A stretch of DNA of 40,927 nucleotides from a virus: positions 1-40,927 of IMG/VR virus record IMGVR_UViG_3300024329_000021; one strand, given 5' to 3'. The translations under genes were made by a program, and so were the position numbers. Position 1 is the first letter of the stretch, and every line of letters begins with the position of its first letter. Below the pieces are notes generated by a model, which saw nothing but the letters and a program-made list of their open reading frames with translations, was not told where the DNA came from and searched no databases. This document shows positions 254 through 40,927 of this stretch, piece after piece.

Positions 254-266
254 TAGGAGAAAACAA

Positions 267-716
267 ATGGGAAGACCACTAAACAAAAGATTATTTGGAA
301 CACCAACAGCAGCTGGTTCTGAAATCAAAGTAAACTTTCATAATGGCACAGCCGTTAAAGAAGGTTATATCGTAAAGCAAGTAGGATCAAAAAAGTTTGT
401 ATGTGAAGAAATCGGTACAGGCGGAGAATTTACTTGTACGCTAACAACTGGTAAATTGCCAGCAGCACTTGTAGCAGGTGAAATGTCAATTTCATTCAAA
501 ATGGACGATGCAGAAACATACACAGTAAGTAAAATTGCTGGACGTAAAGTAACATTAGTTGCTCCAAGTGCTACAGGCTCAAACGCATATGACGGCAAAA
601 GTGTAGCTTGGAACTTTAGTACATCTGTAGCAGATGGCGCAGCACAAGTTGAAGAAGCTGGTGACGACAACACATTAGTTGGTGTTGATGACGACGACTT
701 CACAGAAGACGCATAA
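267..716 (+). CDS. Small virion structural protein (MGRPLNK type)
   Basis: This 149-residue protein opens a four-gene late unit behind a late promoter and a good TAGGAG site. Its N-terminus, MGRPLNKRLFG, is the opening I recall from a family of small virion proteins in marine T4-like phages; that link is from memory. The middle looks beta-rich, with alternating small and hydrophobic residues. The C-terminus (from about residue 125) is very acidic, with a GVDDDDFTEDA tail. There is no signal peptide or membrane segment. Position upstream of two structural genes and a giant fibre gene supports a role in the particle, perhaps a decoration or fibre-associated protein. The exact role is unknown. 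Confidence 0.6.
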   Translation: MGRPLNKRLFGTPTAAGSEIKVNFHNGTAVKEGYIVKQVGSKKFVCEEIGTGGEFTCTLTTGKLPAALVAGEMSISFKMDDAETYTVSKIAGRKVTLVAPSATGSNAYDGKSVAWNFSTSVADGAAQVEEAGDDNTLVGVDDDDFTEDA

Positions 717-11663: not shown

Positions 11664-11688
11664 ATACCTAAATAGGAGGCAGTTGCAC

Positions 11689-26861: not shown

Positions 26862-28565
26862 TTATAATATAATAGTCCAAGTGCCTCGTGGATAATATCC
26901 ATCAACAGCACTTTGCCAGTAGTATCCATTCCAGTAAAATTGTTGACCAGTAGTTACATTAGTAACATATGTAGTTACATTATTGTCACTGGAGTTCCAA
27001 ATAGTAATCCATTTAGATCCGTCCCATTCAACTATATCATTTGCATCAGCTGAGAAATCTGTATTATCTGTATTTTTCCAAGCCTCTGGACCTTTTTCGT
27101 TTAAGTTTAGTACATACGATACAGTATCATCAATGCTGTATGCTGTAGCTAGATTTATAACAAACTTATCGTCTATATTTGCTTTTGTTGCTGCTACTGG
27201 TGATCCGTTTACAAATACTTCAAAAGTTGTAACACGTTCGTCACCTGCTCTATCAGCTAACTCACTAGTAGCAATAGTAAAGTTAATATCGGTGTCGATT
27301 CTATTACTACTAGTAGTAGCTTTAAAACTTCGTTCAACTTTATATCCTATTGGTCCTAACAATAATAATCTAGTACCAACTGTTTTAGTTGTTAAAGGAT
27401 TAAAAGTTATAGGATTTATAATACCGTCTATAGTTCCGTCAGTTTTAGTCGGACCTTCTATGATAGTATTAGAAGGTAATGTATCCTCGTCCCAATCTAT
27501 AATCATTGTATGAGTATCGTCATCTGGAATATTAAATGTGCCGACAATTTCGCCGCTAAGTTCTGCTCTACGTAATCTTATTTGACTTATGTTAGGTTGA
27601 TATTTTGCTGGTAGTTCTGCTTCTATAACATTTAGCCAACTAATATCTCCTACTCGTAGTGCTTTGTTTTTAGCTAGTTTTGCCTCGTCATCGTCAACTA
27701 TAAGATCAAAATCTCTATAACTTGTTACTAGAGGGTTGTTTAAATCTAAACCTGTGCCGCTTACACTTGAAGTACTAGTAATGCCAACATTTCCTGCATT
27801 AACAACAGTACCATCTGGTAATACGGTAACTCCGCTTGATACAGCCTGATCGCCTGATGTTGGAGGATTAAATCCGTCAAGACTTAGCGTTCCTGTATCT
27901 TGACTGTAAACACCAGTAATAATATCTGTTATGATACCTAGTTTTTTAACTTTACTAGGAGGTGAAATATATATTGGTGCTGTAAATCCTAATGTAGCAA
28001 CATCAATATCATCTTGTGTTCCTACAGGAATAGTTCTACTGCTAAAGTTAATATCTTCTAAATATAATGCACTCAAACTAGTCCAGTCTACATAGTTGTC
28101 AGATGTTTGAAACTCCAAGTCAGGATTAAACAACATAAAAATTTGTTCAAGTATTTGCAGTTTTTGATCAGTACTTGTTGACCATACATCAACATTAACA
28201 CTTAATGTATACGGAGTTGGGTGCAATCTTTCAACTGTATATCCTTTAGCTTGTTGTGCTACGTAACTACTAGTGCTTTCGTCAAATGCTTTTTCTCTAA
28301 GATTAATTTTACTAACATAACTGCTATCACTCAAACGCGATCTGTCCATTTGTAAACTAGTAACATATACACCCATCCTAGGAGCACTCGGTAGTTTGTT
28401 GTCACTGTTTTCTCTAATGATACTACCTACTTGTCGTGTAATATCTCCATACAACACCGGAACTACTTTGATATCGCCTTCGCCGTCACGATAACTAAAG
28501 TTACTAAATGCTCTTACTATTTGTGTTATGTACCGTCTTATTTGTCCGTCATAAAAGTATTGCAT
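26862..28565 (-). CDS. gp15: Tail sheath stabiliser / tail completion protein gp15-like
   Basis: The N-terminal half follows T4 gp15: YFYDGQIRRYITQIVRAFSN at residues 3-22, a PVLYGD strand, the RLHPTPYTLSVNVDVW segment, QKLQILEQIFMLFNPDL, and FTAPIYISPP. In T4, gp15 forms the ring on top of the tail that locks the last sheath ring and connects to the gp13/gp14 neck. At 567 residues it is about twice the T4 length (272 as I recall). The extra C-terminal part (from about residue 215) is beta-rich and ends with two W-D/N-G-x-x-W type motifs (VEWDGSKW, YWNGYYW). The start overlaps the gp14 stop (TAATG), so translation is coupled. Confidence 0.85.
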   Translation of the reverse strand: MQYFYDGQIRRYITQIVRAFSNFSYRDGEGDIKVVPVLYGDITRQVGSIIRENSDNKLPSAPRMGVYVTSLQMDRSRLSDSSYVSKINLREKAFDESTSSYVAQQAKGYTVERLHPTPYTLSVNVDVWSTSTDQKLQILEQIFMLFNPDLEFQTSDNYVDWTSLSALYLEDINFSSRTIPVGTQDDIDVATLGFTAPIYISPPSKVKKLGIITDIITGVYSQDTGTLSLDGFNPPTSGDQAVSSGVTVLPDGTVVNAGNVGITSTSSVSGTGLDLNNPLVTSYRDFDLIVDDDEAKLAKNKALRVGDISWLNVIEAELPAKYQPNISQIRLRRAELSGEIVGTFNIPDDDTHTMIIDWDEDTLPSNTIIEGPTKTDGTIDGIINPITFNPLTTKTVGTRLLLLGPIGYKVERSFKATTSSNRIDTDINFTIATSELADRAGDERVTTFEVFVNGSPVAATKANIDDKFVINLATAYSIDDTVSYVLNLNEKGPEAWKNTDNTDFSADANDIVEWDGSKWITIWNSSDNNVTTYVTNVTTGQQFYWNGYYWQSAVDGYYPRGTWTIIL

Positions 28566-29719
28566 TAGTCACCTGCCTTTGCTCTAAGAGCTTTACTAAG
28601 AGCTTGTCTTTCGACTACATCTTCACCGCTAATAGTATTTACAGTTACATTGTTTATAAACGTTCCTTTTAGAGTATCACGTCCACTAGTTTGTGTAAGG
28701 GTAGTTCTAACAGCGTCTTCAATTTTACGCCAGCTATTGCCGTCATATCTAAATAATCTATTAGGAGACAAGTCAATTCTTAAAAAATAATCTCCACTAT
28801 CTGCTTCGCTAGGAAATCCAATTCCTTGTCCGTATGGTGCTCCGTTTGGAGGAATACCATCGCCTACTAAGTATCCTTGATATCCATTGCCATCAGGAGT
28901 AACAAATACAGTGTCTGCTGTTATCTGATCATCGGCTAATAAACTGTCATAGTCAGTACTAACGATTTCAATTTCGCCTGTGTCACCTAACTGTAGTGTA
29001 TAGAACTGTATAGTAGAATACCCACTAAGTGGAACATCAACTTCTGCTTGTGCAATAACAGCTTCGTTGATTTGCATTTCTTTTTCGTATGTACTAAGTA
29101 CATCTCTAAGTGTATCAGCACTGCCTTCTTCTGCAGGCAAATCTAAAATATCTTTGTATTCTTGCGAATCTAGTATTTGCTTTGCACGTAATCTATACAA
29201 ATGTGGATACCAAGTTTGACTAAATCCTTCTGCTGCCCGTGTTACTTCGTCTACAACGTAAAAACGTTTTAGTGCAACATTGTAATCATTAGCAGCATAC
29301 TCGTCTATCATGTGTGGTAGTTCTATTACATCGCCTGCCATAATTTTTCTGCCTAGCGTTTTTACACTACTATTAATATGTATGGTCATAAACAATGTGT
29401 CGTTTTGTAAAAACAATCCAAACTGACTTAGATCAAAGTCTTGATCTTGTAGGTTGTAATGTCCTCTAATGGTGTAAATGTCTTTGTCGTATTTGCGATC
29501 TCTGTTTTCTAAAAATAACAAGTCTTGAATGTTGGTTTCTTTAACAACATCGTAAACAGGTTGTTCAGCAGTTGCATCATCTTCTAATGTATTCTTTGGA
29601 CCAAGATATTTGTGTATATTAAAATCTGTTCCTCCTACAGTAAATTGTTCATAGACAATGCCGTCTAGGAAGGAATAGTCTTTTGTTTTTTGCGGTCTAT
29701 ATAAACTAAGTCTTGGCAT
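28565..29719 (-). CDS. gp14: Neck protein gp14-like
   Basis: The 384-residue product begins MPRLSLYRPQKTKDYSFLDG. Segments such as VGGTDFNIHKYLGPK, DLLFLENRDRKYD, FDLSQFGLFLQNDTL and EGFSQTWYPHLYRLRAKQ match what I know of gp14 neck proteins in marine T4-like phages. gp14 joins gp13 to form the neck that closes the filled head. The C-terminus adds a FRYDGNSWRKIED motif. The start is placed at residue MPR; an upstream in-frame Met would extend into the promoter. A late box CTAAATA ends 5 nt before this ATG and no Shine-Dalgarno site is present, so the mRNA may be leaderless. The gene is divergent from gp13 and coupled to gp15. Confidence 0.88.
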   Translation of the reverse strand: MPRLSLYRPQKTKDYSFLDGIVYEQFTVGGTDFNIHKYLGPKNTLEDDATAEQPVYDVVKETNIQDLLFLENRDRKYDKDIYTIRGHYNLQDQDFDLSQFGLFLQNDTLFMTIHINSSVKTLGRKIMAGDVIELPHMIDEYAANDYNVALKRFYVVDEVTRAAEGFSQTWYPHLYRLRAKQILDSQEYKDILDLPAEEGSADTLRDVLSTYEKEMQINEAVIAQAEVDVPLSGYSTIQFYTLQLGDTGEIEIVSTDYDSLLADDQITADTVFVTPDGNGYQGYLVGDGIPPNGAPYGQGIGFPSEADSGDYFLRIDLSPNRLFRYDGNSWRKIEDAVRTTLTQTSGRDTLKGTFINNVTVNTISGEDVVERQALSKALRAKAGD

Positions 29720-29724
29720 ATGTA

Positions 29725-29731
29725 TATTTAG
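29725..29731 (-). promoter_or_regulatory. Late promoter for gp14-gp15-NUDIX (minus strand)
   Basis: On the minus strand, CTAAATA is followed by TACAT and then the gp14 ATG. A T4-type late start site, about 6 nt past the box, would fall on the A of that ATG. The box abuts the plus-strand late box of gp13, so the two promoters are back-to-back. Confidence 0.65.
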
Positions 29732-29739
29732 CATAAATA
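29732..29739 (+). promoter_or_regulatory. Late promoter for gp13 (plus strand)
   Basis: CATAAATA lies 16 nt before the gp13 ATG, with a TTGGAGAC ribosome-binding site between them. Its first base touches the divergent gp14 box. Confidence 0.7.
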
Positions 29740-29755
29740 CTATTGGAGACAAACA

Positions 29756-30514
29756 ATGGCTGAACTTACAACACAAAAACAAGAAGTATTTGATTACGTA
29801 ACTGCATTTTTAGGCGGAGGCATGATAGATGTTGAACTTGATCCTATACACTATGAAACTGCACTAGGAAAAGCAACTGCACGATACAGACAACGCAGTG
29901 AAAACAGTGTTGAAGAAAGTTACATTACTCTTGCACTAACAGAAGATGTTAATGCATACACACTCCCTAATGAAATAATAGAAGTACGTAAAGTACATAG
30001 ACGTAGCGTAGGAAGTAGATTAGGCGGCAATAGTGGTGGAACAACCTTTGAACCATTTAACCTTGCTTATACAAACACATACTTGTTAGCAGGTAGTGGC
30101 ATTGGCGGCCTTGCTACATATGATTTCTTTGCTCAACAACAAGAACTAGTAGGAAGAATGTTTGGTAGTTTTATCGAATTTGTTTGGAACACTAGTACAA
30201 AAAAACTAACTATATTAACAAGACCAAGAGCTGAGGAAGAAGTATTGCTATATTGTTATAATCACAGACCTGACTTTGAGTTGTACAAAGACTACAAAGC
30301 ATTTCAGTGGATTAAAGAATATACTCTTGCCAACTGTAAATATATGTTAGGTGAAGCACGTAGTAAGTTTGCTACTATTGCTGGACCAGGTGGCGGAACT
30401 ACGCTAAATGGTGATACGTTAAAATCCGAAGCTCAACAGGAAATGGAAAAACTTGACAACGACTTGGCTATGTCTGTTGCAGGTGGTGTTGGCTACGGAT
30501 TTTTAATTGGATAA
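29756..30514 (+). CDS. gp13: Neck protein gp13-like
   Basis: The 252-residue product carries segments I recognise from gp13 neck proteins of marine T4-like phages: RYRQRSENSVEESYI, YTLPNEIIEVRKVHRRSVG, EPFNLAYTNTYLLAGSG, ATYDFFAQQQELVGRMFGSF and KKLTILTRPRAEEEV. With gp14 it builds the head-to-tail neck after DNA packaging. It is translated from a good TTGGAG site behind its own late promoter. Its 3' end overlaps the TTG start of the next gene by 8 nt. Length is somewhat below the T4 protein (309 residues as I recall). Confidence 0.9.
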   Translation: MAELTTQKQEVFDYVTAFLGGGMIDVELDPIHYETALGKATARYRQRSENSVEESYITLALTEDVNAYTLPNEIIEVRKVHRRSVGSRLGGNSGGTTFEPFNLAYTNTYLLAGSGIGGLATYDFFAQQQELVGRMFGSFIEFVWNTSTKKLTILTRPRAEEEVLLYCYNHRPDFELYKDYKAFQWIKEYTLANCKYMLGEARSKFATIAGPGGGTTLNGDTLKSEAQQEMEKLDNDLAMSVAGGVGYGFLIG

Positions 30515-31334
30515 TAAATTTAATAATATCAAAAAAGTAATAGCAGGTGGTTGTAGTTTTACAGCAGGCTCTGAACTTGCTGACGAGTCTTGGGATCGCA
30601 ATCATAAAGGAATATGCTACGAGTTGAGTCATACAGCATGGCCAAACTTGCTTCAACAAAAAATGTTTACTAATGCAACAGTTGATAATACTGCTGTACC
30701 AGGTGCTGATTATGGAAGTATAGTTAGACGTATAATATACCAAACCCGCCGCCAATTAAAAATACACAAGCCAGAAGATATTGTTGTAGTTGTAATGTGG
30801 ACAAGTATTTTACGTAGAGAATATCCTAGTATATATCCTACAGGCAGAAAAATAAAAACTCATGAAGATAGATTTTTAACTTCATTACCATCAGACGGCG
30901 ACGGCAAAACTAAAGGTTATTCAAATGCAATGTTGTACATGAGAAGACAAATGTGGGCGTCAGAACATCTAACACGAACAAACGTAGAGTTTTATGCTAG
31001 GCGTGACACGCACGATAATCATGTATATTATCCACTACAGCAACTTGAATATTTAACAAACTGGCTCGAGAATCATAATATTAAATATTTTTTTACATCG
31101 GCGTTTAACGATATACAACCAGAGTTATTAAATCAAGATAATATTTTTTTACAAGACATGGTTGGAAGATTAAATCTTCCTAATAATATACACACCGAAG
31201 ATAGCCTTGGATTTTACGATTGGGCAACAAAGTTTAAATACGAAAAAGGAAAAGAATCAGAACATCCTCTCGAACAAGCACACAACGATTGGGCAGATCT
31301 TTTTTCAAAATGGATATTGACAAAATGTAAATAG
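30507..31334 (+). CDS. SGNH/GDSL-hydrolase-like protein
   Basis: The 275-residue protein has the SGNH hydrolase blocks in order: a GGCSFTAGSEL nucleophile motif with Ser17, an oxyanion-type DNTAVPGADYGSIVRR segment (about 57-72, Gly present), a hydrophobic strand VVVVMWTS (about 93-100), and a C-terminal HPLEQAH with His253/His259 as candidate catalytic His. SGNH enzymes are esterases or deacylases acting on lipids, acetylated sugars or cell-wall polymers. The start is a TTG inside the gp13 stop region (8-nt overlap), the only start that keeps the nucleophile block; the next Met is at residue 53. There is no signal peptide. It may modify a surface sugar or a virion glycan, but the substrate is unknown. 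Confidence 0.72.
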   Translation: MDNKFNNIKKVIAGGCSFTAGSELADESWDRNHKGICYELSHTAWPNLLQQKMFTNATVDNTAVPGADYGSIVRRIIYQTRRQLKIHKPEDIVVVVMWTSILRREYPSIYPTGRKIKTHEDRFLTSLPSDGDGKTKGYSNAMLYMRRQMWASEHLTRTNVEFYARRDTHDNHVYYPLQQLEYLTNWLENHNIKYFFTSAFNDIQPELLNQDNIFLQDMVGRLNLPNNIHTEDSLGFYDWATKFKYEKGKESEHPLEQAHNDWADLFSKWILTKCK

Positions 31335-31346
31335 TATGTTACATTT
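31323..31346. repeat. Inverted repeat before the kinase-like gene
   Basis: AAATGTAA and TTACATTT form an 8-bp A+T-rich stem around ATAGTATG, overlapping the stop codon of the SGNH gene and ending 5 nt before the next ATG. No T-run follows, so it is not a standard terminator. It may affect translation of the next gene, whose start has no evident Shine-Dalgarno site. Confidence 0.35.
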
Positions 31347-31351
31347 AAATT

Positions 31352-31852
31352 ATGAAAAAGAAGTTATTAGTAATAGGCCATGGAAGACATGGTAAAGACA
31401 CTGTATGCGAAATTCTGCGAGACGAGTACGGTTATACATTTGAAAGCAGCAGTAAGTTTTGCTCAAAGTTGTTCATCTATGATAACTTAAAGGACAAATA
31501 TGGATACGCTAATGAAGAAGAGTGTTATGCTGACAGGCATAACCACAGAGCAGAATGGTATGATGCTATCTGCGATTATAATGTTCCTGATGCAGCGACT
31601 CTAGGTAGAGAAATGTTTGATGCCTATGATATCTATTGTGGGCTACGCAACAAACGTGAATTCTTTGCAATGCAAAACACAGGTGTATTTGATTACTGTA
31701 TCTGGGTTGATCGCAGCAAATACCTGATGCCTGAGTCAAAAGACAGCATGAGTCTTGAACAATGGATGGCAGATTTTACTATAGACAACAACGGAACGTT
31801 GGATGATCTTTGGTTTAATATTAGACAGCTAATGAGTTATATACATACTTAA
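31352..31852 (+). CDS. P-loop kinase-like protein (deoxynucleotide monophosphate kinase type)
   Basis: The 166-residue protein opens with strand and P-loop LLVIGHGRHGKDT (G9 to T17), whose GKDT ending is typical of the T4 gene 1 dNMP kinase and related short nucleotide kinases; later VFDYCIWVDR resembles a substrate-side strand. Such enzymes phosphorylate dNMPs to feed phage DNA synthesis. T4 gp1 is longer (241 residues as I recall), so a reduced or different substrate domain is likely. The gene sits among tail genes, between the SGNH gene and gp18, without a clear late box or ribosome-binding site, so it may be translated from the gp13 transcript. Confidence 0.7.
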   Translation: MKKKLLVIGHGRHGKDTVCEILRDEYGYTFESSSKFCSKLFIYDNLKDKYGYANEEECYADRHNHRAEWYDAICDYNVPDAATLGREMFDAYDIYCGLRNKREFFAMQNTGVFDYCIWVDRSKYLMPESKDSMSLEQWMADFTIDNNGTLDDLWFNIRQLMSYIHT

Positions 31853-31884
31853 CCCCTAAAAACCGCCTTTTTTACCGGTGATCT

Positions 31885-31892
31885 GCTAAATA
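31885..31892 (+). promoter_or_regulatory. Late promoter for tail sheath gp18
   Basis: GCTAAATA lies 35 nt before the gp18 ATG; the leader contains a strong CAGGAGA ribosome-binding site. It matches the other late boxes in the window. Confidence 0.7.
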
Positions 31893-31927
31893 CTTGTAAG
31901 TGAAACACTTTACAGGAGAAAATTAAA

Positions 31928-34900
31928 ATGGCATTAACTTCACCAGGTGTAGAGGTCAGCGTTATTGATGAGAGTTTTTACACTCCAGCAGAACCAGGCA
32001 CAGTACCTATAATATTTGTCGCAACAGGCGAAAATAAACTAAACGGCGCAGGAACTGGTATTGCACCAGGAACTCAAAAAGCCAATGCAGGTAAACCATA
32101 CCTACTAACATCGCAGCGAGATCTAGTAGATACATTTGGCGATCCTACATTTTATACAGATGCTAACAACAATCCTATTCATGGCGGAGAGCAAAATGAA
32201 TACGGACTTCAAGCAGCATATTCATACCTAGGCGTAAGCAATAGAGCATATGTAGTAAGAGCAGATATTGACCTTACAGCGATATCAGCTAGTTCAACGC
32301 CAACTACTGCAAATCCTGCAGATGGTACTTATTGGTTAGATACTCAAGTAACAAAGTTTGGTATCTTTGAATGGAACGGTAGTGCGCAGTCAGCGACTAA
32401 TAAAGTTGGTCAAACATTTACTAACAAAACACCAACTGTTATTACCGATGCAACACAAACATCAGGTTCATCTCCTTATGCTCCAAAACAATCAGTTGGC
32501 GCTATTGGCGATTACGCAGTTGTAGCTGTTTCAACTATTATACGTACATGGTATAAAAACACAACAGGTGCATGGGTAGAAGTAGGCAGTGCAAACTGGA
32601 AAGGCAGTTGGCCTTCAGTAACAGGTACAGCAGGTACACCGACATTTACAGCAAGTAATACTATTACTATTGGATCTGCAGAAGGTCTTAGTGTAACAGT
32701 TGTACTATCTGGAACTAGTCTTGCTTCAACAGTAAGTGATATTAATACAGCATTAGGTGCTGTTGGAATCACTGCAGAAGCAATAGATAACAGATTAGCA
32801 TTTAAAAATACTGGTGCAACACATTCTAACATCGTTCTTGGTAACGGTACAGGAACACCACTAACTGATGCAGGTATTGTTGCTGGAACATATTATCCAC
32901 CAGCACATCAAGCAACTGCTCACACAAGTGTTCCAGAATGGAAAACAGCAGATTCAGCATCACGTCCAACAGGAAGTGTATGGGTTAAAACAACTACACC
33001 AAACAGTGGTGCAGATTGGAAAACAAAAGTATGGAATGGTTCAACTGAACTATGGGATGCAGTAAGCACACCGATTTATACTTCAAACTCAGCAGCATTA
33101 GCTGGCTTAGATAAAACAGGTGGCGGCGCAAACTTAACAACGCTTAATGTTTATGCAATGGCAAATGTTACAGAAAATGCAACAAACCTAGCTAACTTTA
33201 CTCTTTTCAAACGTAATGCTAATGGCGCAACAACTATTACTAGTGGTGTAGTCGACAGTACTACATTTACAAGTGGTACTAATGATTTTACTATTAGTGA
33301 AACAGTAAAAGGAAGCGCAACATTAAGTACACCAGTAACTATTTCATTTAGTGCAACAGGTGCTACAACTGATGCAGAGTTAATGGCAGCAGCTATTAAT
33401 ACAGCAGGATTAACTAATGTTACTGCTAGTGTTGATTCAACTAATAGAGTTGTAGTATCACATGCTATTGGTGGCGACATTAGATTTGTAGATGGTGCAA
33501 ACACACCATTAGCTGACGCATTTACTGCTTGGAACTACTCAACAAAATCAGGAACTGTAAACTTTTATGATAGTCCAAACGGGTTGTCAGGTGCATATAT
33601 TGCAACACTTTGGAAAGAACTAACTTATACAGCAAGTAATGATGCTCCAACTGCTCTTGCAGCTGACGGCGCATTATGGTATAGTAGTGTTGTTGATGAA
33701 GTTGACATTATGGTACACGATGGCGATAAGTGGGTTGGATATTTGAATACTGATTCACCGTATTACGATGTTACACCTGGAAATGCTCCAGACGCAAGCG
33801 GTCCAATCGTTGCTGCATCTGAACCAGTTGATGGCGACCGTGCAGATGGTGGCAATCTTGTAACTGGCGATATTTGGGTTAGTACAGCAGATTTAGAAAA
33901 CTTCCCAAGAATCTATCGTTGGAATAATACACTAAACAGTTGGGTTGAACTTGATACAACAGATCAAACAACTGAAAACGGTGTACTATTTGCAGATGCA
34001 CGTTACAACACAGCAGGTGCAAACAGCAGTACTGAAGGCGATATTGTTGACATGATTACTAGTAACTATGTCGATGTAGATTGTCCAGATCCAGCACTAT
34101 ATCCAAAAGGTATGTTGCTATGGAACCTACGTAGAAGCGGATTCAACGTTAAACGCTTTGAGCGTAACTATGTCGACTTAGCAGCAGACAACGAACGCTT
34201 TGGCGACGAATCAATGTCAGCATATTATCCACACCGTTGGGTTACAGAATCAGCTAACGAAGCAGATGGATCTGGTAGCTTTGGTCGTAAAGCACAGCGT
34301 AAAGTTGTAGTACAAAAACTACAAGCAATGCTAAACGAAAATCAAGATATTCGTGACAATGAATCACGTATCTTTAACTTGATGTCAACACCAGGTTATC
34401 CAGAGCTAATCGGAGAAATGATTACACTAAACTATGACAGAGGCCTAACAGCATTTGTTATTGGTGATTCACCTTTCCGTTTAACACCGGATGCAACTTC
34501 ACTTAACGAATGGGCAACCAACGTTAATACAGTTGTTGAAGATAATGACAACGGACTTGTAAGTAGAGATGAATACTTAGGTGTTTATTATCCAAGTGGT
34601 TTCACAAGCGATAATGCAGGTAACAATGTTGTTGTTCCAGCATCGCATATGGTACTACGTACATTTGCACTTAATGACCAAGTTGCTTATCCATGGTTTG
34701 CACCAGCAGGTACAAGACGTGGCGGAGTTACAAACGCAACTTCAACAGGTTACATTAGTAACGAAGGCGAATTTGTTGCATCAGCACTAAACGAAGGACA
34801 GCGAGATACATTGTATCAAAACAACGTTAACCCTATTACATTCTTAACAGGTGCAGGGCTAGTTGTATTTGGACAAAAAACTCGTGCAAGAAATGCAAGT

Positions 34901-35224
34901 GCTCTTGATAGAGTTAATGTTGCAAGACTTGTAGTGTACTTACGTAGTCAGTTGAATCAGTTGACAAAACCATATCTATTTGAACCAAATGATAAAATCA
35001 CACGTGATGAAATCAAAGCACAAGTAGAAAGTTTAATGGTTGAACTAGTGGGACTAAGAGCTCTATATGACTTCTTAGTTGTGTGCGACGAATCAAACAA
35101 CACACCAGCGAGAATTGATCGAAATGAACTATATGTAGATATTGCTATTGAACCAGTCAAAGCAGTAGAGTTTATATACATACCATTGCGTATCAAAAAT
35201 ACAGGAGAAATCGCAGGATTATAA
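31928..35224 (+). CDS. gp18: Tail sheath protein gp18 with large insertion (1098 aa)
   Basis: The N-terminus (MALTSPGVEVSVIDESFY, then VPIIFVATGENK and LVDTFGDPTFY, AYVVRADIDL, to about residue 117) and the C-terminal third (from about 690: GMLLWNLRRSGFNVKRFERNY, YPHRWVTESANE, AYPWFAPAGTRRGGV, NPITFLTGAGLVVFGQKT, VDIAIEPVKAVEFIYIPLR) are clear contractile sheath sequence. Between them lie about 570 residues of Ala/Thr/Ser-rich beta sequence with WNG-type motifs (FEWNGS, VWNGSTELW, YRWNNTLNSW). T4 gp18 is 659 residues, so the protein is expanded by an outward-facing insertion. The sheath contracts to drive the tube into the host. It has a strong CAGGAGA site and its own late promoter. Confidence 0.96.
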   Translation: MALTSPGVEVSVIDESFYTPAEPGTVPIIFVATGENKLNGAGTGIAPGTQKANAGKPYLLTSQRDLVDTFGDPTFYTDANNNPIHGGEQNEYGLQAAYSYLGVSNRAYVVRADIDLTAISASSTPTTANPADGTYWLDTQVTKFGIFEWNGSAQSATNKVGQTFTNKTPTVITDATQTSGSSPYAPKQSVGAIGDYAVVAVSTIIRTWYKNTTGAWVEVGSANWKGSWPSVTGTAGTPTFTASNTITIGSAEGLSVTVVLSGTSLASTVSDINTALGAVGITAEAIDNRLAFKNTGATHSNIVLGNGTGTPLTDAGIVAGTYYPPAHQATAHTSVPEWKTADSASRPTGSVWVKTTTPNSGADWKTKVWNGSTELWDAVSTPIYTSNSAALAGLDKTGGGANLTTLNVYAMANVTENATNLANFTLFKRNANGATTITSGVVDSTTFTSGTNDFTISETVKGSATLSTPVTISFSATGATTDAELMAAAINTAGLTNVTASVDSTNRVVVSHAIGGDIRFVDGANTPLADAFTAWNYSTKSGTVNFYDSPNGLSGAYIATLWKELTYTASNDAPTALAADGALWYSSVVDEVDIMVHDGDKWVGYLNTDSPYYDVTPGNAPDASGPIVAASEPVDGDRADGGNLVTGDIWVSTADLENFPRIYRWNNTLNSWVELDTTDQTTENGVLFADARYNTAGANSSTEGDIVDMITSNYVDVDCPDPALYPKGMLLWNLRRSGFNVKRFERNYVDLAADNERFGDESMSAYYPHRWVTESANEADGSGSFGRKAQRKVVVQKLQAMLNENQDIRDNESRIFNLMSTPGYPELIGEMITLNYDRGLTAFVIGDSPFRLTPDATSLNEWATNVNTVVEDNDNGLVSRDEYLGVYYPSGFTSDNAGNNVVVPASHMVLRTFALNDQVAYPWFAPAGTRRGGVTNATSTGYISNEGEFVASALNEGQRDTLYQNNVNPITFLTGAGLVVFGQKTRARNASALDRVNVARLVVYLRSQLNQLTKPYLFEPNDKITRDEIKAQVESLMVELVGLRALYDFLVVCDESNNTPARIDRNELYVDIAIEPVKAVEFIYIPLRIKNTGEIAGL

Positions 35225-35266
35225 ATCATTAAAGTAGGGGGAAAATAAAATCCCCCTACAAATGAT
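35225..35266 (+). other. Strong hairpin between gp18 and gp19
   Basis: GTAGGGGG (35234-35241) pairs with CCCCCTAC (35252-35259) around a 10-nt A/T loop, and ATCATT/AATGAT (35225-35230 with 35261-35266) extends it by 6 bp. No T-run follows. The outer 3' arm overlaps the first three bases of the gp19 late box. It could be an RNA 3'-end or processing element protecting the gp18 mRNA, or a weak terminator. Confidence 0.75.
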
Positions 35267-35271
35267 AAATA
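35264..35271 (+). promoter_or_regulatory. Late promoter for tail tube gp19
   Basis: GATAAATA precedes the gp19 ATG by 22 nt, with AAGGAG in the leader. Its GAT is also the end of the upstream hairpin. Confidence 0.7.
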
Positions 35272-35293
35272 CATGTGATAAGGAGAAACATAG

Positions 35294-35932
35294 ATGGCAA
35301 TCTCAACTCTATTAAATTTAACAGTACCGTTAGCAAACGATACTAGTGCAAGCAGTCAGGGTCTGCTAATGCCTAAACTACAATACCGTTTCCGAGTAAC
35401 ATTGGAAAACTTTGGTATTACAGGCAACACAACTGAATTAACAAAACAGGTTATTGATGCAACCCGTCCAAATATATCATTCCAACAAATACCGATTGAT
35501 GTTTACAACAGTAAAATTTATATGGCAGGCAAGCACGAATGGCAAGCAGTTACAATGAACTTACGTGACGATGTTAACGGAAACGTACAACGTTCAGTAG
35601 GCGAGCAACTACAGAAACAGTTTGATTTCTTTGAACAGTCTAGTGCTGCTACAGGACAAGACTATAAGTTTACACAACGTATTGAAGTACTAGACGGCGG
35701 CAACGGCGCTAATACTCCAGCTGTACTTGAAACTTGGGAACTATATGGTTGCTATTTAACAAGTGTTGACTACGGATCAATGAGTTACTCAGCAAACGAT
35801 GCAATGACAGTAGCTCTTAATATTCAATATGACAATGCTGTACAACTTAACGTAGGTGTTGGAACGCCTAATAACTTCCAAGATCGAAATACTGAAACAG
35901 GCACAGGTGCCACAGGCGCTGCCGCTCTTTAA
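35294..35932 (+). CDS. gp19: Tail tube protein gp19
   Basis: The 212-residue product has the gp19-type tube sequence: PKLQYRFRVTLENFG, the loop VIDATRPNISFQQIPIDVYN, GKHEWQAVTMNLRDD and LETWELYGCYLTSVDYGSMSY, with NDAMTVALNIQYDNA near the end. Hexamer rings of this protein form the tube through which DNA leaves the head. Position after gp18, a strong AAGGAG site, its own late box and a strong downstream terminator suggest very high monocistronic expression. The last 15 residues are a Thr/Gly/Ala-rich tail. Length is slightly above T4 gp19 (163 residues as I recall). Confidence 0.95.
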   Translation: MAISTLLNLTVPLANDTSASSQGLLMPKLQYRFRVTLENFGITGNTTELTKQVIDATRPNISFQQIPIDVYNSKIYMAGKHEWQAVTMNLRDDVNGNVQRSVGEQLQKQFDFFEQSSAATGQDYKFTQRIEVLDGGNGANTPAVLETWELYGCYLTSVDYGSMSYSANDAMTVALNIQYDNAVQLNVGVGTPNNFQDRNTETGTGATGAAAL

Positions 35933-35958
35933 TACTAACTAAGAGATTGCTTGACTTC

Positions 35959-35987
35959 TAAGGAGCCCAATGGGCTCCTTATTTGTT
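35959..35987 (+). terminator. Rho-independent terminator after gp19
   Basis: TAAGGAGCCC pairs with GGGCTCCTTA (10 bp) around a 3-nt AAT loop, followed by TTTGTT. It isolates the tube gene from the next unit. Confidence 0.85.
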
Positions 35988-36008
35988 ATGTGCGCTGTTT
36001 AAATATAA

Positions 36009-36016
36009 GATAAATA
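36009..36016 (+). promoter_or_regulatory. Late promoter, possibly leaderless start
   Basis: GATAAATA ends only 4 nt (CTTT) before the ATG at 36021. No Shine-Dalgarno sequence is present between the terminator of gp19 and the ATG. A T4-type start site would fall on or next to the start codon. Confidence 0.7.
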
Positions 36017-36020
36017 CTTT

Positions 36021-37295
36021 ATGCCGTTAAATAGAAACTTTGATAACTTTACTAATTTTGATACCAACAAAGGTATAATGGGTGACTTTACTCACGCCTC
36101 AAACTTGTATCGTCGCAATAACTTTAGACTTGCGCCTAAAGTCAAATTCTTATATCATGTTGTAATAGATGTAAATCCAATAGCGTTACAATCATTAGGA
36201 AACAATGTTAGTAACTTATTAAACAAACGAGAGTTTAATATATTAGCATCATCTGCTGATTTACCAAACTACGATATTAATACCGAAACAATAAATCAAT
36301 ATAATAGAAAAAAAGTAGTTCAAACAAGAATAAACTATAATCCTGTTAATATTGAGTTTCATGATGATGCTGCTGGGCTAACAACATTATTGTGGGAAGC
36401 CTATTATAGATATTATTATGAAGACGGCAACTATGCTGATCAAGGAACTCGTCCACGTGCATATCAAACTGGCTTATACGATAGTGAGCCACAGAATACT
36501 TATAGACACGGTTTTAACAGATCCGGCAAAACATATCCATTTTTTAATAGTATAACTATACACCAACTACATCATCAAAATACTGATAGTCATTTTACTA
36601 GTTTTACACTTGTTAATCCTCTTATATCTGGCTGGGAACATGATAGAGTAGATCAATCAGATGCTTCTGGTATAATGAAAAATACTATGCGTGTTGATTA
36701 TGAAACAGTATTATACGATAGAGGTTATACCGGAGATGATAATCCAGCAGGATTTGCAGATAACGCACACTATGATAAATCGCCAAGTCCGTATATTAGT
36801 ACAGGATCGGGTAGTGATACAACAGGAATTGAGAATGGTTGGACTAAGGTATTTGCTGATATATTTTTAGACATATTAGGAATAACTGAGTTTAATACCG
36901 AACAGCAACGTAACCTAAGATCTCCATTTGTAACTAATCCAGTTACAACAGATAACAGAGTTCCATTTAATAGTAATACATTCTTTCCACAAAGTTCAAC
37001 TCAGACAGCTATAACTACAGCCTTTTTTGATGCAGCATTTGAATCAACAATATCTCAAAGAGAGTTACAAAATAGTACTATTAAGCAAAGAGACTTGGCC
37101 AGGAATGCTCTTCGAAACTATGCAATAGCACAAGGATCATCAAACTCATTTAATGATAACGGCCAGCTGTTTGATAATTTAAATGCAACCCAACAACTAC
37201 AACTACAACAGGCAGTTGTTGATAACTATAGAGTAGACCCAACACTACAAGGTGCAGCATTTACTAGCACTCTTGAGAATATTATAGGTGGCTAA
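36021..37295 (+). CDS. Tail-tube-fold protein, possible baseplate tube initiator (gp54/gp19-like)
   Basis: The 424-residue product aligns by eye with the tube protein in the preceding gene: PKVKFLYHVVIDVNPIA parallels PKLQYRFRVTLENFG, and SADLPNYDINTETINQYNRK followed by TRINYNPVNIEFHDDAAG parallels the gp19 loop and second strand. It adds a long middle and C-terminal part with Gln/Asn/Ser-rich helices (from about 320). In T4 the tube fold also occurs in gp54, which starts tube growth on the baseplate, so a tube-initiator or tube-cap role is plausible. The late box lies 4 nt before the ATG. The next gene starts directly after its stop. Confidence 0.55.
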   Translation: MPLNRNFDNFTNFDTNKGIMGDFTHASNLYRRNNFRLAPKVKFLYHVVIDVNPIALQSLGNNVSNLLNKREFNILASSADLPNYDINTETINQYNRKKVVQTRINYNPVNIEFHDDAAGLTTLLWEAYYRYYYEDGNYADQGTRPRAYQTGLYDSEPQNTYRHGFNRSGKTYPFFNSITIHQLHHQNTDSHFTSFTLVNPLISGWEHDRVDQSDASGIMKNTMRVDYETVLYDRGYTGDDNPAGFADNAHYDKSPSPYISTGSGSDTTGIENGWTKVFADIFLDILGITEFNTEQQRNLRSPFVTNPVTTDNRVPFNSNTFFPQSSTQTAITTAFFDAAFESTISQRELQNSTIKQRDLARNALRNYAIAQGSSNSFNDNGQLFDNLNATQQLQLQQAVVDNYRVDPTLQGAAFTSTLENIIGG

Positions 37296-37670
37296 ATGAG
37301 TAGTATAACTGATAAAAGTATTAATAAATCATCTGATAGTGCAGCAGAGGTAAAATCATTCTTTGATAGATATTTTTCAAAATCGATATCGATTACAAGC
37401 AATGAAGTTGATAGTGTATTAGGATTTTTTAAAAAAAGAAAGTTTGAAGATAATGCAGCTATTGCTGTAACTACAGTATTATTGCAACAAGCTAAATCTG
37501 AAAATAAAAATATATTTGAGTTATTAGATAGTTTAAAAGGTTTAGATGAGGTAAAACTTAGTCAGCTGGTAGCTGCTATTTTGAATAATAACAGAAGCAA
37601 AGTAAGTGCTCTTGGTTACACAACAGATTATCAGATTGTAACATACGAAAATAGAAACGTTGTATTGTAA
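37296..37670 (+). CDS. Hypothetical protein of the tail/head unit (124 aa)
   Basis: ATG follows the upstream stop without a gap, with ATAGGTGG as ribosome-binding site. The product looks helical: an N-terminal SSDSAAEVKSFFDRYFSKS segment, SNEVDSVLGFFKKRKF, AIAVTTVLLQQAKSENKNIF and a KLSQLVAAILNNNRSKVSALGY end. Proteins of this appearance occur in structural operons of marine T4-like phages as I recall, but I know no function. The stop overlaps the next ATG (TAATG), coupling it to the head-completion gene. It may be a small virion or assembly factor. Confidence 0.65.
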   Translation: MSSITDKSINKSSDSAAEVKSFFDRYFSKSISITSNEVDSVLGFFKKRKFEDNAAIAVTTVLLQQAKSENKNIFELLDSLKGLDEVKLSQLVAAILNNNRSKVSALGYTTDYQIVTYENRNVVL

Positions 37671-38107
37671 TGTCGAGGTTTGCACAAGGCAAGTATACAT
37701 TAAAAAACCCTGAAAAATATGTAGGCGGCAGAACTCCTACTTATAGAAGTAGTTGGGAATTTGCTTTTATGCGTATGTGCGATACAAACGAAAATATAAC
37801 AAAATGGGCTAGTGAAGCAGTTCGTATTCCTTATAGAAATCCACTAAGTGGAAAACACACTATATATGTTCCTGATTTCTTTATAGTATACAATGATCGT
37901 ACAGGTAAACAACACGTTGAACTAATAGAAGTCAAGCCAGCAAATCATACATTTAAAGAACAACTAGGCAACAGCAAAGTAAACAAGTTACACTATGTTG
38001 TTAATCAAGCAAAATGGGCAGCAGCTAGAGGTTACTGTAAACAAAAAGGAATGCTATTTAGAGTTGTTAACGAAGGAGATATTTTCCATCAAGGCAAACG
38101 TAGATAA
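37670..38107 (+). CDS. gp4: Head completion protein gp4-like (TnsA/endonuclease-like fold)
   Basis: The 145-residue product matches the gp4-type pattern: YVGGRTPTYRSSWEFAFMR, ITKWASEAVRIPYRNPLSGK, then a nuclease-like core with E30, D69 (VPDFF) and E87-V-K89 (IEVKP). T4 gp4 (also called gp50/65) acts after DNA packaging so that the tail can join the head. The E...D...ExK pattern is that of PD-(D/E)xK enzymes such as TnsA, suggesting a DNA-end trimming or binding role; catalysis is not proven. It is coupled to the gene before. Its stop codon lies within the late box of gp16. Confidence 0.82.
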   Translation: MSRFAQGKYTLKNPEKYVGGRTPTYRSSWEFAFMRMCDTNENITKWASEAVRIPYRNPLSGKHTIYVPDFFIVYNDRTGKQHVELIEVKPANHTFKEQLGNSKVNKLHYVVNQAKWAAARGYCKQKGMLFRVVNEGDIFHQGKRR

Positions 38108-38110
38108 ATA
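38103..38110 (+). promoter_or_regulatory. Late promoter for terminase small subunit
   Basis: GATAAATA overlaps the last codons of the gp4-like gene (AGA TAA) and lies 25 nt before the gp16 ATG, with ATAGGTG in between. Confidence 0.65.
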
Positions 38111-38135
38111 ATAGTAGCATATTATAGGTGTTATT

Positions 38136-38618
38136 ATGACAAAGAAACTTGAAGAAATGTTGAATCTTCCAGATAACGAAGATATTAAACAAGAAGTACA
38201 ACAACAGGCAGTTGTTGCACAAGAAGAAACTTTTAGAGATATTGCAGAGTTTGACAAGATTGCAAGTGCATTGCCAGCTGTTAAAGGACTTGGCCAAAAA
38301 GCAGACGACGAACTCGAAGACATTGCATCACGTGCATTGGAAGCATATGACGATTTAATGGATTTAGGAATGAATGTTGAATCACGTTACGCAAGCAGAG
38401 TATTTGAAGTTGCTGGCGGAATGCTTAAAACATCATTAGATGCTAAGGTTGCTAAAATGGATAAGAAACTAAAAATGATTGACTTGCAACTTAAAAAAGA
38501 AAAAATGGACAAAGATAGTAACCCTGGCGATGGCGGCGTAGTTAACGGGGAAGGATATGTTGTCTCAGATCGTAATAGCCTTTTAGAGAAGTTAAAAGGC
38601 ATGAACAATGATAAATAG
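38136..38618 (+). CDS. gp16: Terminase small subunit gp16-like
   Basis: This 160-residue acidic-basic protein is helical by appearance: a central helical pair (ASRALEAYDDLMDLGMNV and RVFEVAGGMLKTSLDAKVA) followed by KMDKKLKMIDLQLKKEKMDK, and a flexible C-terminus ending in SDRNSLLEKLKGM. The A-x-E-x-Y/V ... R...VFEVAG...LKT layout agrees with gp16 small terminases of T4-like phages, which form rings that recognise DNA and stimulate gp17. In T4 genes 16 and 17 overlap; here they are 1.5 kb apart. Its final codons (GAT AAA TAG) form the late box of the next unit. Confidence 0.82.
   Translation: MTKKLEEMLNLPDNEDIKQEVQQQAVVAQEETFRDIAEFDKIASALPAVKGLGQKADDELEDIASRALEAYDDLMDLGMNVESRYASRVFEVAGGMLKTSLDAKVAKMDKKLKMIDLQLKKEKMDKDSNPGDGGVVNGEGYVVSDRNSLLEKLKGMNNDK
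38610..38617 (+). promoter_or_regulatory. Late promoter at the end of gp16
   Basis: GATAAATA is built from the last Asp-Lys-stop codons of gp16 and lies 23 nt before the next ATG, with GTAGGATA as ribosome-binding site. Confidence 0.6.
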
Positions 38619-38640
38619 TAACATAACGTAGGATACAATA

Positions 38641-39123
38641 ATGAAAAACTTTGCTGATTATTTGACTGAAAGTAAAAAAACATACGAGTTCAAGATTGGT
38701 GTAGCTGGTGAGCTGCCTGAAAACTTTGAAGATATGCTTGAAACCAGTTTACAAAAATACGGATGCTCGCAAATTGCAGCTGGTAAAAAAACACCAATAC
38801 AAGAACGTCCACTAGACTTTCCACAGTTAGAAAACTGCGAAGCTACATACTTTGAAATAAGTTGTACATATCCAACAACAGTGCAAGTACTTCAAGAGTA
38901 CATCGGACAGTGTTGCGGAGTCAAACAAAGTCATATTATTGTACGTAATCCAAATGAGCCACAAGAGCTGTATCAAGAAGAAGTGTCTTCTGATGTATAT
39001 GTTGCAAAGCTAACAGTTGAAGAACTCGAAGGCGAAAGCGCACAGGATATGGCAGGCGAAAATAGAGTAATGGACCTGCTGAAAGAATTAGAGACAGCTC
39101 GTAAAGAACAGTCAGGAGACTAA
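38641..39123 (+). CDS. Conserved-looking phage protein, possible head/core component (160 aa)
   Basis: The product begins MKNFADYLTE, then FKIGVAGELPENFEDMLETSL, the TPIQERPLDFPQLENCE segment, and a late RNPNEPQELYQEE and NRVMDLLKELETARKE helix. I recall similar proteins between the terminase genes or in head genes of marine T4-like phages, with no solid function. Two ferredoxin-like alpha/beta halves are suggested by alternating strands and helices. The gene is in an operon with the next one (AGGAGACTAATATG). Role in scaffold or core assembly is a guess. Confidence 0.6.
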   Translation: MKNFADYLTESKKTYEFKIGVAGELPENFEDMLETSLQKYGCSQIAAGKKTPIQERPLDFPQLENCEATYFEISCTYPTTVQVLQEYIGQCCGVKQSHIIVRNPNEPQELYQEEVSSDVYVAKLTVEELEGESAQDMAGENRVMDLLKELETARKEQSGD

Positions 39124-39124
39124 T

Positions 39125-40060
39125 ATGAAAAAAGTAAACGAAGCTAATATGAACATTAGTGTAAATGGCGAAAGCGCATCGGAAGTATCAGAACTACTGC
39201 GCATTATGCAACTAGCAGGTTCTGATGCAAAAGAAGTTGATATTGATGATATTAATCAAAAAATGTTACCGAGTCCAGAAGATGACGGCCCGTGTGATGT
39301 ATGTGGCGGCGATCATGGTCCTTCAGATCTTATGGCAGGCTGCGGCGGCAAGTCGTCAAGTGAAACAATGGCAGACACTATCAGAATGATTTCAAAAGAA
39401 GAAGATGATTATGATGGTAACTTTGGTGATGCAACTACAGAACCAGATGACGAATATATGAGATCAAATGCAGGCGATGTAAGTGACATGATTCCAAGTG
39501 GTGACGACTTACACAAAGAAAAAGGATCACATCCAGCAACAGCAGGTGGCGACAATCCAATGAATACTAGAGAAAGTATTCATGCAATGCTTACAAAAGC
39601 ACTTGCTGAAAAACAAGCATCAAAAGAGCCAAAGCCAGACTTTCCAGACTTAGATGGCGACGGCAACAAAGAAGAGCCAATGAGTCAAGCTATTGCACAG
39701 CGTGATGGCGAAGATGAAGACGAAGACAAAAAGTCTAAAGGTATCAAAGCAATGATTGATGCTGGTAACAAAAAAGCAGATGCAGAAGTTGCTGAATATG
39801 ATGTTCCAAGTAACTTTGAAAACAAGCACAAAGACATCAACAATCTTGGACGCAAAATGATGGACATGAGTTCAAATATGTCAGGAACTGATGATACTAG
39901 TTTAATGATGGCAAATGCACTTTCAAGACTTGGTGAAGTATTAGCTGAGTTTGGTGGCAGCGGATTTGCTGCTAACAACATGAACGATGTCATTAAAAAA
40001 TCATCTTTGAACAAAGAGATTGTTCAAATGCTAATGAAAAAAGCCAAAGAAGAAGATTAA
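39125..40060 (+). CDS. Acidic protein with zinc-ribbon-like and EF-hand-like sites (311 aa)
   Basis: A strong CAGGAGACTAAT precedes the ATG. The product is very acidic and low-complexity in the middle (about 90-220). Two metal-site candidates are visible: C57-x2-C60-x3-H64-x8-C73 (PCDVCGGDHGPSDLMAGC), and an EF-hand/dockerin-like loop D175-x-D177-x-D179-G-N181-x2-E184. The C-terminus (about 245-311) is helical with MMANALSRLGEVLAEFG. No enzyme motif is seen. It might be a scaffold or DNA-mimic-like assembly factor for packaging, since it sits between the two terminase genes; this is inference. Confidence 0.6.
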   Translation: MKKVNEANMNISVNGESASEVSELLRIMQLAGSDAKEVDIDDINQKMLPSPEDDGPCDVCGGDHGPSDLMAGCGGKSSSETMADTIRMISKEEDDYDGNFGDATTEPDDEYMRSNAGDVSDMIPSGDDLHKEKGSHPATAGGDNPMNTRESIHAMLTKALAEKQASKEPKPDFPDLDGDGNKEEPMSQAIAQRDGEDEDEDKKSKGIKAMIDAGNKKADAEVAEYDVPSNFENKHKDINNLGRKMMDMSSNMSGTDDTSLMMANALSRLGEVLAEFGGSGFAANNMNDVIKKSSLNKEIVQMLMKKAKEED

Positions 40061-40063
40061 GAA

Positions 40064-40090
40064 CGTTCTACCGACTGAGCGAACGGACCC
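40064..40090 (-). other. tRNA-like fragment (5' half of tRNA-Lys type), antisense
   Basis: Read on the minus strand, this segment begins GGGTCCGTTC and continues GCTCAGTCGGTAGAAC, which resembles the acceptor strand and D-arm of bacterial tRNA-Lys (GGGTCGTTA, then GCTCAGTTGGTAGAGC, from memory), with one inserted base and about three changes. No anticodon or T-arm half follows; the continuation is the coding end of the previous gene. It is therefore at best a remnant or a mimic, not a tRNA gene. Confidence 0.4.
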
Positions 40091-40118
40091 AAATAGCACC
40101 TACGGGTGCTATTTTTTT
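40091..40118 (+). terminator. Rho-independent terminator before gp17
   Basis: AAATAGCACC pairs with GGTGCTATTT (10 bp) around a TACG loop closed by C-G (a UNCG tetraloop), followed by seven T residues. It ends two bases before the gp17 late box. Confidence 0.92.
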
Positions 40119-40119
40119 C

Positions 40120-40127
40120 TATAAATA
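40120..40127 (+). promoter_or_regulatory. Consensus late promoter for gp17
   Basis: TATAAATA is the exact T4 late consensus. Only 5 nt (ATATT) separate it from the ATG at 40133, so the predicted start site is the A of the ATG. No ribosome-binding site can lie in this gap. Confidence 0.85.
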
Positions 40128-40132
40128 ATATT

Positions 40133-40927
40133 ATGGCAGCATCATTAGACGGCGTCTTAATCAAAAAGGCGAATAGAAAAGAAACATTTACAGAAGAACA
40201 AATAGCAGACCTTTTGGCCTGCATGGATCCAGACGAAGGATACTTGCATTTTTCTCGTAAGTTTGCTTATATACAACACCCAACTAAAGGCAAACTACTG
40301 TTTGATCCTTATGAATATCAGCTAGGGTTAATGGATAGTTATCATAGTTTTAGATTCAACATCAATATGATGCCTAGACAAACAGGCAAGACTACATGTG
40401 CTGCAATCTATCTAGCATGGTTTGCAATGTTTAATCCAGATCAAACTATTCTTATTGCTGCACACAAATACACAGGTGCACAGGAGATTATGTCACGCAT
40501 ACGTTTTGTATATGAAACTTGTCCGGATCATATTAGAGCAGGTGTCACAAGTTACAACAAAGGTAGTATTGAGTTTGAAAATGGCAGTCGTATTGTAAGT
40601 CAAACAACAACAGGTAATACAGGACGTGGTATGAGTATTTCATTACTATACTGTGACGAGTTTGCATTTGTGCAACCCAACATTGCAGAAGAGTTTTGGA
40701 CATCGATATCGCCTACACTAGCAACAGGTGGTCGTGCTATTATTACTAGCACACCAAACAGTGATGAAGATACGTTTGCTACTATCTGGAAACAGGCAGA
40801 ACAAAAGTTTGATGAATACGGCAACGAACAAGATGTAGGTATAAACGGATTTCATAGTTTTATTGCAGAGTGGCATGAACATCCAGACAGAGATGAAGAG
40901 TGGAAGAAAGAAGAAATAGGACGTATT
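40133..40927 (+). CDS. gp17: Terminase large subunit gp17, N-terminal part (cut by window end)
   Basis: 265 codons are present; the C-terminal nuclease domain lies outside the window. The ATPase motifs are clear: Walker A P81-RQTGKT, Walker B LLYCDE (171-176), and coupling motif TSTPN (205-209). An adenine-binding Gln is likely within FDPYEYQ (57-63). gp17 is the motor that pumps DNA into the prohead and cuts it. The ATG at 40133 starts 5 nt after a consensus late box and 15 nt after a terminator, without a Shine-Dalgarno site, suggesting a leaderless mRNA. An upstream start is excluded by the terminator and promoter. Confidence 0.97.
   Translation, partial: MAASLDGVLIKKANRKETFTEEQIADLLACMDPDEGYLHFSRKFAYIQHPTKGKLLFDPYEYQLGLMDSYHSFRFNINMMPRQTGKTTCAAIYLAWFAMFNPDQTILIAAHKYTGAQEIMSRIRFVYETCPDHIRAGVTSYNKGSIEFENGSRIVSQTTTGNTGRGMSISLLYCDEFAFVQPNIAEEFWTSISPTLATGGRAIITSTPNSDEDTFATIWKQAEQKFDEYGNEQDVGINGFHSFIAEWHEHPDRDEEWKKEEIGRI

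Follow-up and report, generated by a model that had tools for sequence, protein, structure and literature searches.

The closest described relatives of the arrangement discussed here are the late promoters of bacteriophage T4, served by the gp55/gp33/gp45 system, and the leaderless mRNAs of bacteria and temperate phages, of which lambda cI is reportedly an example. The T4 late box lies one helical turn before the transcription start (PMC2988020) and spans positions -13 to -6 (PMC1524935). As to leaderless mRNAs, one report, on phage AR9, describes phage transcripts as "often leaderless" (PMC5312081), and another places 6–8% of the primary starts of Prochlorococcus within 10 nucleotides (nt) of translation starts (PMC5607370). 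In the virus record that we consider (IMGVR_UViG_3300024329_000021 of IMG/VR, 40,927 bases, the whole of which is called the window), T4-type late boxes stand only 4–5 nt before the ATG of three genes, those for the terminase large subunit (gp17), for a second tail-tube-like protein and, on the minus strand, for a virion structural protein at the position of gp14 (the minus-strand gene), and the same layout is retained across a clade of related, uncultured phages akin to T4.

The likeness to T4 late promoters is in the TAAATA core, in the position of the boxes before virion genes, and in a homolog of the late sigma factor gp55 encoded by two relatives (G001 and G002; phrog_12791, E 6.9e-79 and 2.4e-79; the gp55 family phrog_234 is also matched in both, E 4.1e-22 and 1.8e-22), no match to gp55 being found in the other eight of the ten relatives' contigs to which the search was applied, the window not being among them and contig completeness not being given. 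Very probably, such gp55-dependent promoters are used in two layouts. In one, the box lies some 13–44 nt upstream of the ATG, which would give a leader, usually with a Shine-Dalgarno sequence (SD); in the other, the box at 4–5 nt would make the polymerase start on the A of the AUG, so that ribosomes would have to initiate at a 5'-terminal AUG. This is unlike T4 and Syn9, in which none of the boxed first ATGs (0/33 and 0/25, respectively) is 4–5 nt from its box, compared to 45/171 in this clade. The predicted 5'-terminal AUG, the missing SD and the fusion of promoter and start codon resemble the leaderless mRNAs of bacteria, for example mycobacteria (PMC4633059), and of temperate phages. Unlike those, the genes in question are virion genes of the T4-type late-sigma kind, are conserved in a clade and occur alongside late genes with SD-containing leaders, while their 5' ends are predicted only. 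The ingredients are known, and their lineage-specific combination was not found described in the literature searched; among the titles and abstract openings listed there, none concerned leaderless T4-type late mRNAs, subscription journals being mostly uncovered.

The first-pass annotation of this DNA had pointed to three late boxes 4–5 nt before an ATG, all lacking an SD, and the junctions bear this out, with no SD upstream of any of the three starts in the window:

40092 to 40119, plus strand: terminator-like hairpin and T tract directly 5' of the gp17 box, with an equivalent hairpin in 19/19 distinct boxed gp17 orthologs
40120 to 40127, plus strand: T4-type late box TATAAATA of gp17, followed by the spacer ATATT; predicted +1 at 40133, the A of the ATG
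40133 to 40927, plus strand: gp17, terminase large subunit, predicted leaderless, extending beyond the window (PHROG terminase families; Pfam Terminase_6N)
35960 to 35989, plus strand: terminator-like hairpin 5' of the second tube-like gene, recognized from the sequence
36009 to 36016, plus strand: late box GATAAATA of the second tube-like gene, followed by the spacer CTTT and an ATG at 36021; predicted +1 at 36021 or 36022
36021 to 37295, plus strand: second tail-tube-like protein, predicted leaderless (tail tube families phrog_13438, E 1e-11, and phrog_4542, E 4e-10)
29725 to 29732, minus strand: late box GCTAAATA of the minus-strand gene (29732 to 29725 in reading direction), followed by the spacer TACAT; predicted +1 at 29719, the A of the ATG
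28565 to 29719, minus strand: virion structural protein at the gp14 position, predicted leaderless (phrog_11591, E 1.2e-88)

The name gp14, given earlier to the minus-strand gene, has only a positional basis, its place between gp13-like and gp15-like genes; homology to T4 gp14 is unsupported, a profile comparison returning a probability of 4%. Taken by itself, the window makes a weak case: TAAATA followed by ATG after 2–7 nt occurs six times, compared to 7.8 expected from shuffles, and two short-spaced starts are counted under a first-ATG rule (p 0.015), which misses the minus-strand gene. It is the comparative data that carry the observation.

Relatives were gathered with the sheath protein, and the best 80 sheath loci were kept, of which only those holding the N-terminus of a given gene and 60 nt upstream contributed an ortholog (53 for the minus-strand gene, 61 for the tube-like gene, and 30 for gp17). 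Those alike in the last 40 nt upstream and the first 15 nt were merged, leaving 32, 40, and 22 distinct regions, respectively. With only the exact TAAATA core searched for, variant boxes being uncounted, the box is found 4–5 nt before the ATG in 52/53, 60/61, and 26/30 orthologs before merging, and in 31/32, 39/40, and 18/22 of the distinct regions, a total of 88/94, while TAAATA within 60 nt is present in 91/94. Related phages thus retain both the box and the short spacing, the loss of which had been named beforehand as grounds for abandoning the prediction. The base preceding TAAATA varies (A, C, G, or T), and the spacer is highly variable in sequence and constant in length. At 85% protein identity, the minus-strand and tube-like genes form 53 clusters, 51 of which show the short spacing; for gp17 there are only two clusters at this level, one of them mixed. 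A box at 6–14 nt is absent from all 12 ortholog sets investigated, two of them being entirely unboxed. An SD-like string accompanies only 2 of the 88 distinct short-spaced regions, versus 151/177 in five leadered genes. The box lies farther out in three orthologs, at 30 nt (minus-strand gene of L062), 19 nt (tube-like gene of L080), and 23 nt (gp17 of L069), and each of these has an SD-like string. The start of the L062 minus-strand gene is, however, uncertain, since its ATG is replaced by ATA and the script chose a TTG three codons in, the spacing being 30 nt from the TTG and 21 nt from the ATA.

Five other genes are leadered in every distinct ortholog that has a box. The box is found at 15–19 nt, with an SD-like string, in 37/37 for the gp13-like gene; at 19–26 nt in 36/36 for the tube gene (SD-like in 36/36); at 30–44 nt in 42/43 for the sheath gene (SD-like in 42/42, the remaining ortholog unboxed); and at 17–25 nt in 31/31 for the gene at 38641 (SD-like in 30/31). 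The gene at 38136, boxed at 23–27 nt in 31/34 and otherwise unboxed, has an SD-like string in only 6/31, and is thus leadered yet mostly without a string counted as SD. The list of late genes proposed earlier to have both a leader and an SD holds for gp13, gp18, and gp19, with boxes at 16, 35, and 22 nt, and for gene 267, whose box is 96 nt upstream and whose leader contains an SD and an RNA of known family (see below). It would not hold for gene 11689, a giant open reading frame (ORF) in which the late box overlaps the SD (window 11668–11691; TAAATAGGAGG; CTAAATAGGAGG), so that an RNA begun 6 nt past the box would lack that SD.

On the genome scale, greedy ORFs of at least 60 amino acids with the first ATG as the start were taken from the window and the ten relatives' contigs (740 ORFs), a rule that overlooks genes beginning at another codon, as at 29719. 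The box is 0–3 nt from the first ATG in 5 of these, 4–5 nt in 45, 6–12 nt in 10, 13–27 nt in 80, and 28–44 nt in 31, the short-spaced share of boxed starts being the 45/171 mentioned above. TAAATA is also the commonest hexamer 4–5 nt before first ATGs (45/740), followed by GGAGAA (25). Two cultured SAR11 phages possess the same class: in HTVC008M, 13 of 30 boxed starts are short-spaced, 12 of them at exactly 5 nt, and in Mosig 7 of 37 (6 when short ORFs are excluded), all at 5 nt. Other phages do not follow, with 1/57 in PA5oct, 0/11 in phiM12, 0/5 in Cr30, and 4/59 in the first 240 of the 252 kb of P-SSM2, the last being probably due to chance, as three of the four lack a pyrimidine at -1. 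A rule by which the class would belong to phages of alphaproteobacterial hosts is unsupported by phiM12 and Cr30, albeit these have few boxes. The named phages matching the window are jumbo phages such as PA5oct, a comparison from which very near records may be excluded. Six homologs of the minus-strand gene from cultured jumbo phages were compared. Five of them (PA5oct, Phosso, Atu_ph07, Vibrio 2.275, and RaK2) have a more distant box, in most cases together with an SD-like string, and that of Salicola SCTP-2 has no box within 70 nt; none of the six therefore shares the leaderless layout. The presence of the class in HTVC008M and Mosig suggests either repeated gain or an old origin. Overall, the earlier proposal that late mRNA comes in two classes finds good support at the level of sequence architecture, considering conservation in the distinct regions and recurrence across the clade contigs and the two SAR11 phages.

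As to the position of the RNA start, with the T4 box at -13 to -6 the +1 would be the sixth base after the last A of the box, which at a spacing of 5 nt is the A of the ATG. In the clade, a pyrimidine is found at -1 in 44/45 short-spaced starts, versus 57/111 leadered and 220/532 unboxed ones, and likewise in 12/13 in HTVC008M, 6/6 in Mosig, and 88/88 distinct orthologs. RNA polymerases favor starting on a purine that follows a pyrimidine. Across 13 records, in-frame codons placed 4–5 nt after TAAATA are ATG in 65 cases, TTG in 1, GTG in 0, CTG in 1, ATA in 4, and ATT in 4, against a background of 1235, 351, 183, 153, 982, and 1013, respectively. Spacing correlates with the base immediately after the box, a C there being accompanied by a spacing of 4 nt in 32/34 and any other base by one of 5 nt in 47/54 (p 7e-15, inflated by relatedness), and we tentatively suggest that this base moves the start site by 1 nt, with the ATG tracking the shift. 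By the same ruler, the first G of GGAGA would be the +1 of the gp13-like gene in 32/34 distinct orthologs. The T4 distance and this initiator-like signature, along with the conserved spacing, thus argue for the leaderless state predicted for the late mRNAs of the three genes, and they would place the RNA start on the AUG itself.

Several points weigh against this interpretation. The start sites are predicted from sequence, and the host of the clade would have to be capable of translating leaderless mRNA; the single match in a host search in genome contigs, at 32% identity and in a Methylophilaceae bin, is uninformative. Under a strict 6-nt rule, a spacing of 4 nt would place the +1 on the T of the ATG. 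For ten clade starts the distance from box to ATG is 6–12 nt, and three gp17 orthologs (L035, L062, and L064) have no box within 60 nt, each possessing an SD-like string. That all 88 of 88 short-spaced orthologs start with ATG is partly by construction, as the script preferred ATG over GTG and TTG. For individual contigs, p ranges from 5e-13 in G003 to 1.5e-2 in the window and in four small contigs. The clade contigs share orthologs and are not independent, which inflates the p values.

One alternative is that transcripts begin 1–4 nt upstream of the AUG, with ultra-short leaders that would be functionally near-leaderless. RNA polymerases typically vary by 1–2 nt in their choice of start site, and for the gene after gp17 (identity by coordinates) the box is at 7 nt in five of the ten relative contigs (G002 34386, G004 49533, G005 49381, G006 3814, and G009 17535) and at 8 nt in one, while it is at 4 nt in G001 and G003. 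The pyrimidine at -1 and the way in which the spacing changes with the base after the box, however, indicate one exact base, and we consider ultra-short leaders unlikely.

Another alternative is that the genes are mainly expressed by read-through from upstream promoters and translated without an SD through an AU-rich start region or by coupling, the box being a minor or accidental promoter. Of the 45 clade cases, 21 have an upstream neighbor on the same strand and no terminator detected; the gap is often only 8–15 nt, and read-through with translational coupling would be possible there, which again counts against leaderless mRNAs. For the three genes of the window the evidence points the other way. 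A scan of the 80 nt 5' of the box, identical for all genes (one gp13-like ortholog being omitted as too short), detected a hairpin with a T tract in 19/19 distinct boxed gp17 orthologs, the stem ending 6–8 nt before the box, and in 39/40 distinct tube-like orthologs, the stem ending 6–40 nt before it (58/59 combined), versus 1/176 in the five leadered genes. With regard to a -35 element, which T4-type late promoters lack, the upstream profile covers 22 nt before the box, a stretch that for gp17 is this terminator. The minus-strand gene shows such a hairpin in only 2/32; it is instead divergent from gp13, its upstream neighbor, the two boxes standing back to back and the predicted starts being 26–33 bp apart in 30/32 distinct pairs:

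29732 to 29739, plus strand: late box CATAAATA of the gp13-like gene, divergent from and back to back with the box of the minus-strand gene; predicted +1 at 29745, the first G of GGAGA
29756 to 30514, plus strand: gp13-like head-tail adaptor (phrog_211), leadered, with an SD, serving as a control gene

Due to the terminators in the first two cases and to divergence in the third, same-strand read-through is likely blocked or absent for all three genes, and the retention of box and spacing in nearly all distinct regions also speaks against an accidental promoter, so that read-through appears quite improbable as the main source of these mRNAs. Insulation is not a general rule of the class, however. 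Genome-wide, terminators precede 17/45 leaderless versus 6/111 leadered starts (p 1.4e-6), mostly before gp17 and the tube-like gene, but when terminator or divergence is counted the difference (24/45 versus 41/111, p 0.07) is not significant, a further point against the interpretation that we prefer.

The least credible alternative, that the short spacing results from chance or AT-richness combined with mis-called starts, the true ones being elsewhere, can draw on the raw matches in the window, which do not exceed shuffles, and on one of them, at 165, that is not a gene start, but it is rejected by the anagrams of TAAATA, found 4–5 nt before only 0–5 first ATGs (except for AAATAT, 16, and ATAAAT, 15, which are TAAATA boxes shifted by one base), by the scarcity of the spacing in T4, Syn9, and PA5oct, by the orthologs of the three genes, and by an excess of third-codon-position differences over codons 2–12 of all three genes, with none upstream (in pairs alike at the N-terminus), according to which the coding phase begins at the ATG.

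The divergent box pair at window 29719–29756 is near-palindromic in some relatives (for example, TATTTATCGATAAATA); one of its arms is predicted leaderless, and the predicted leader of the other, of 10–14 nt, starts with the SD. Such pseudo-symmetric, back-to-back elements resemble the bidirectional promoters of E. coli and Salmonella plasmids (PMC12825309; PMC10268837) and are unlike them in being late-sigma boxes, with one arm predicted leaderless and the other having its SD at the predicted 5' end.

As to which genes belong to the leaderless class, identities were assigned by match to T4 proteins in eight records. gp17 is short-spaced in the window, G002, and G003, and unboxed in G001, HTVC008M, and Mosig; gp25 is short-spaced in G001 and HTVC008M, with its box at 8 nt in Mosig; gp2 is short-spaced in HTVC008M and Mosig, and gp4 in HTVC008M. 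In HTVC008M, gp2 and gp4 form a divergent pair (18916/18943) with facing boxes close together and both arms predicted leaderless. The other short-spaced genes of G001 to G003 have matches to virion structural families, to a nucleotidyltransferase and to a DnaJ protein, the start of the last not being the first ATG and not being counted in the 45. gp23 is unboxed and SD-led, gp18 is leadered or unboxed, and gp13 is leadered in the clade. In T4, gp17, gp25, gp2, and gp4 are low-copy proteins, and low-copy parts appear prominent among the predicted leaderless genes, although the leadered gp13 breaks any simple rule equating low copy with leaderless, and gp17 lacks the box in the two SAR11 phages. 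That the leaderless class keeps low-copy virion parts at a lower output is a speculation, and the earlier idea that leaderless mRNAs may make translation of the motor and neck proteins low or 70S-dependent is a hypothesis. A broader proposal, which we put forward tentatively, is of a second late translational regulon, in which promoter and start codon would be fused at single-base precision, about a quarter of the boxed late genes, mostly for low-copy virion parts, would be leaderless, their output would be set by the way in which host ribosomes handle 5'-terminal AUGs, and the layout would have arisen or persisted separately in the SAR11 phages.

Late transcription in T4 is textbook knowledge, and yet no boxed first ATG of T4 is 4–5 nt from its box, while in the clade and in the two cultured SAR11 phages 19–43% of boxed late starts (45/171, 13/30, and 7/37) apparently lie directly at the AUG. 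The leadered and leaderless versions of gp17, gp4, the gene at the gp14 position, and the tube-like gene provide a natural, replicated comparison that bears on why leaderless mRNAs exist and on how phages set protein ratios. They also are a warning for start-codon callers that expect an SD.

Before gene 267, at window 163–269, the late box GATAAATA precedes a leader matching the Rfam family freshwater-2 (RF02980; 67.1 bits versus a gathering threshold of 49.9), which is followed by an SD. A box is present within 160 nt of this gene in 35/35 distinct relatives, and 20 of the leaders align, the Rfam scan itself having been applied to the window only. The freshwater-2 RNA is thereby tied to a T4-type late promoter. 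A fourth leaderless gene considered at 165 (TAAATA-CAT-ATG) was rejected as a gene start, as this region leads into the freshwater-2 RNA and an ATG within 6 nt of the box is found in only 12/35 distinct relatives.

Two adjoining giant ORFs, of 3133 and 3631 amino acids, occupy window 2121–11522 and 11683–22578. The start of a 3156-amino-acid ORF in G004 (19935) shows the same overlap of box and SD as gene 11689.

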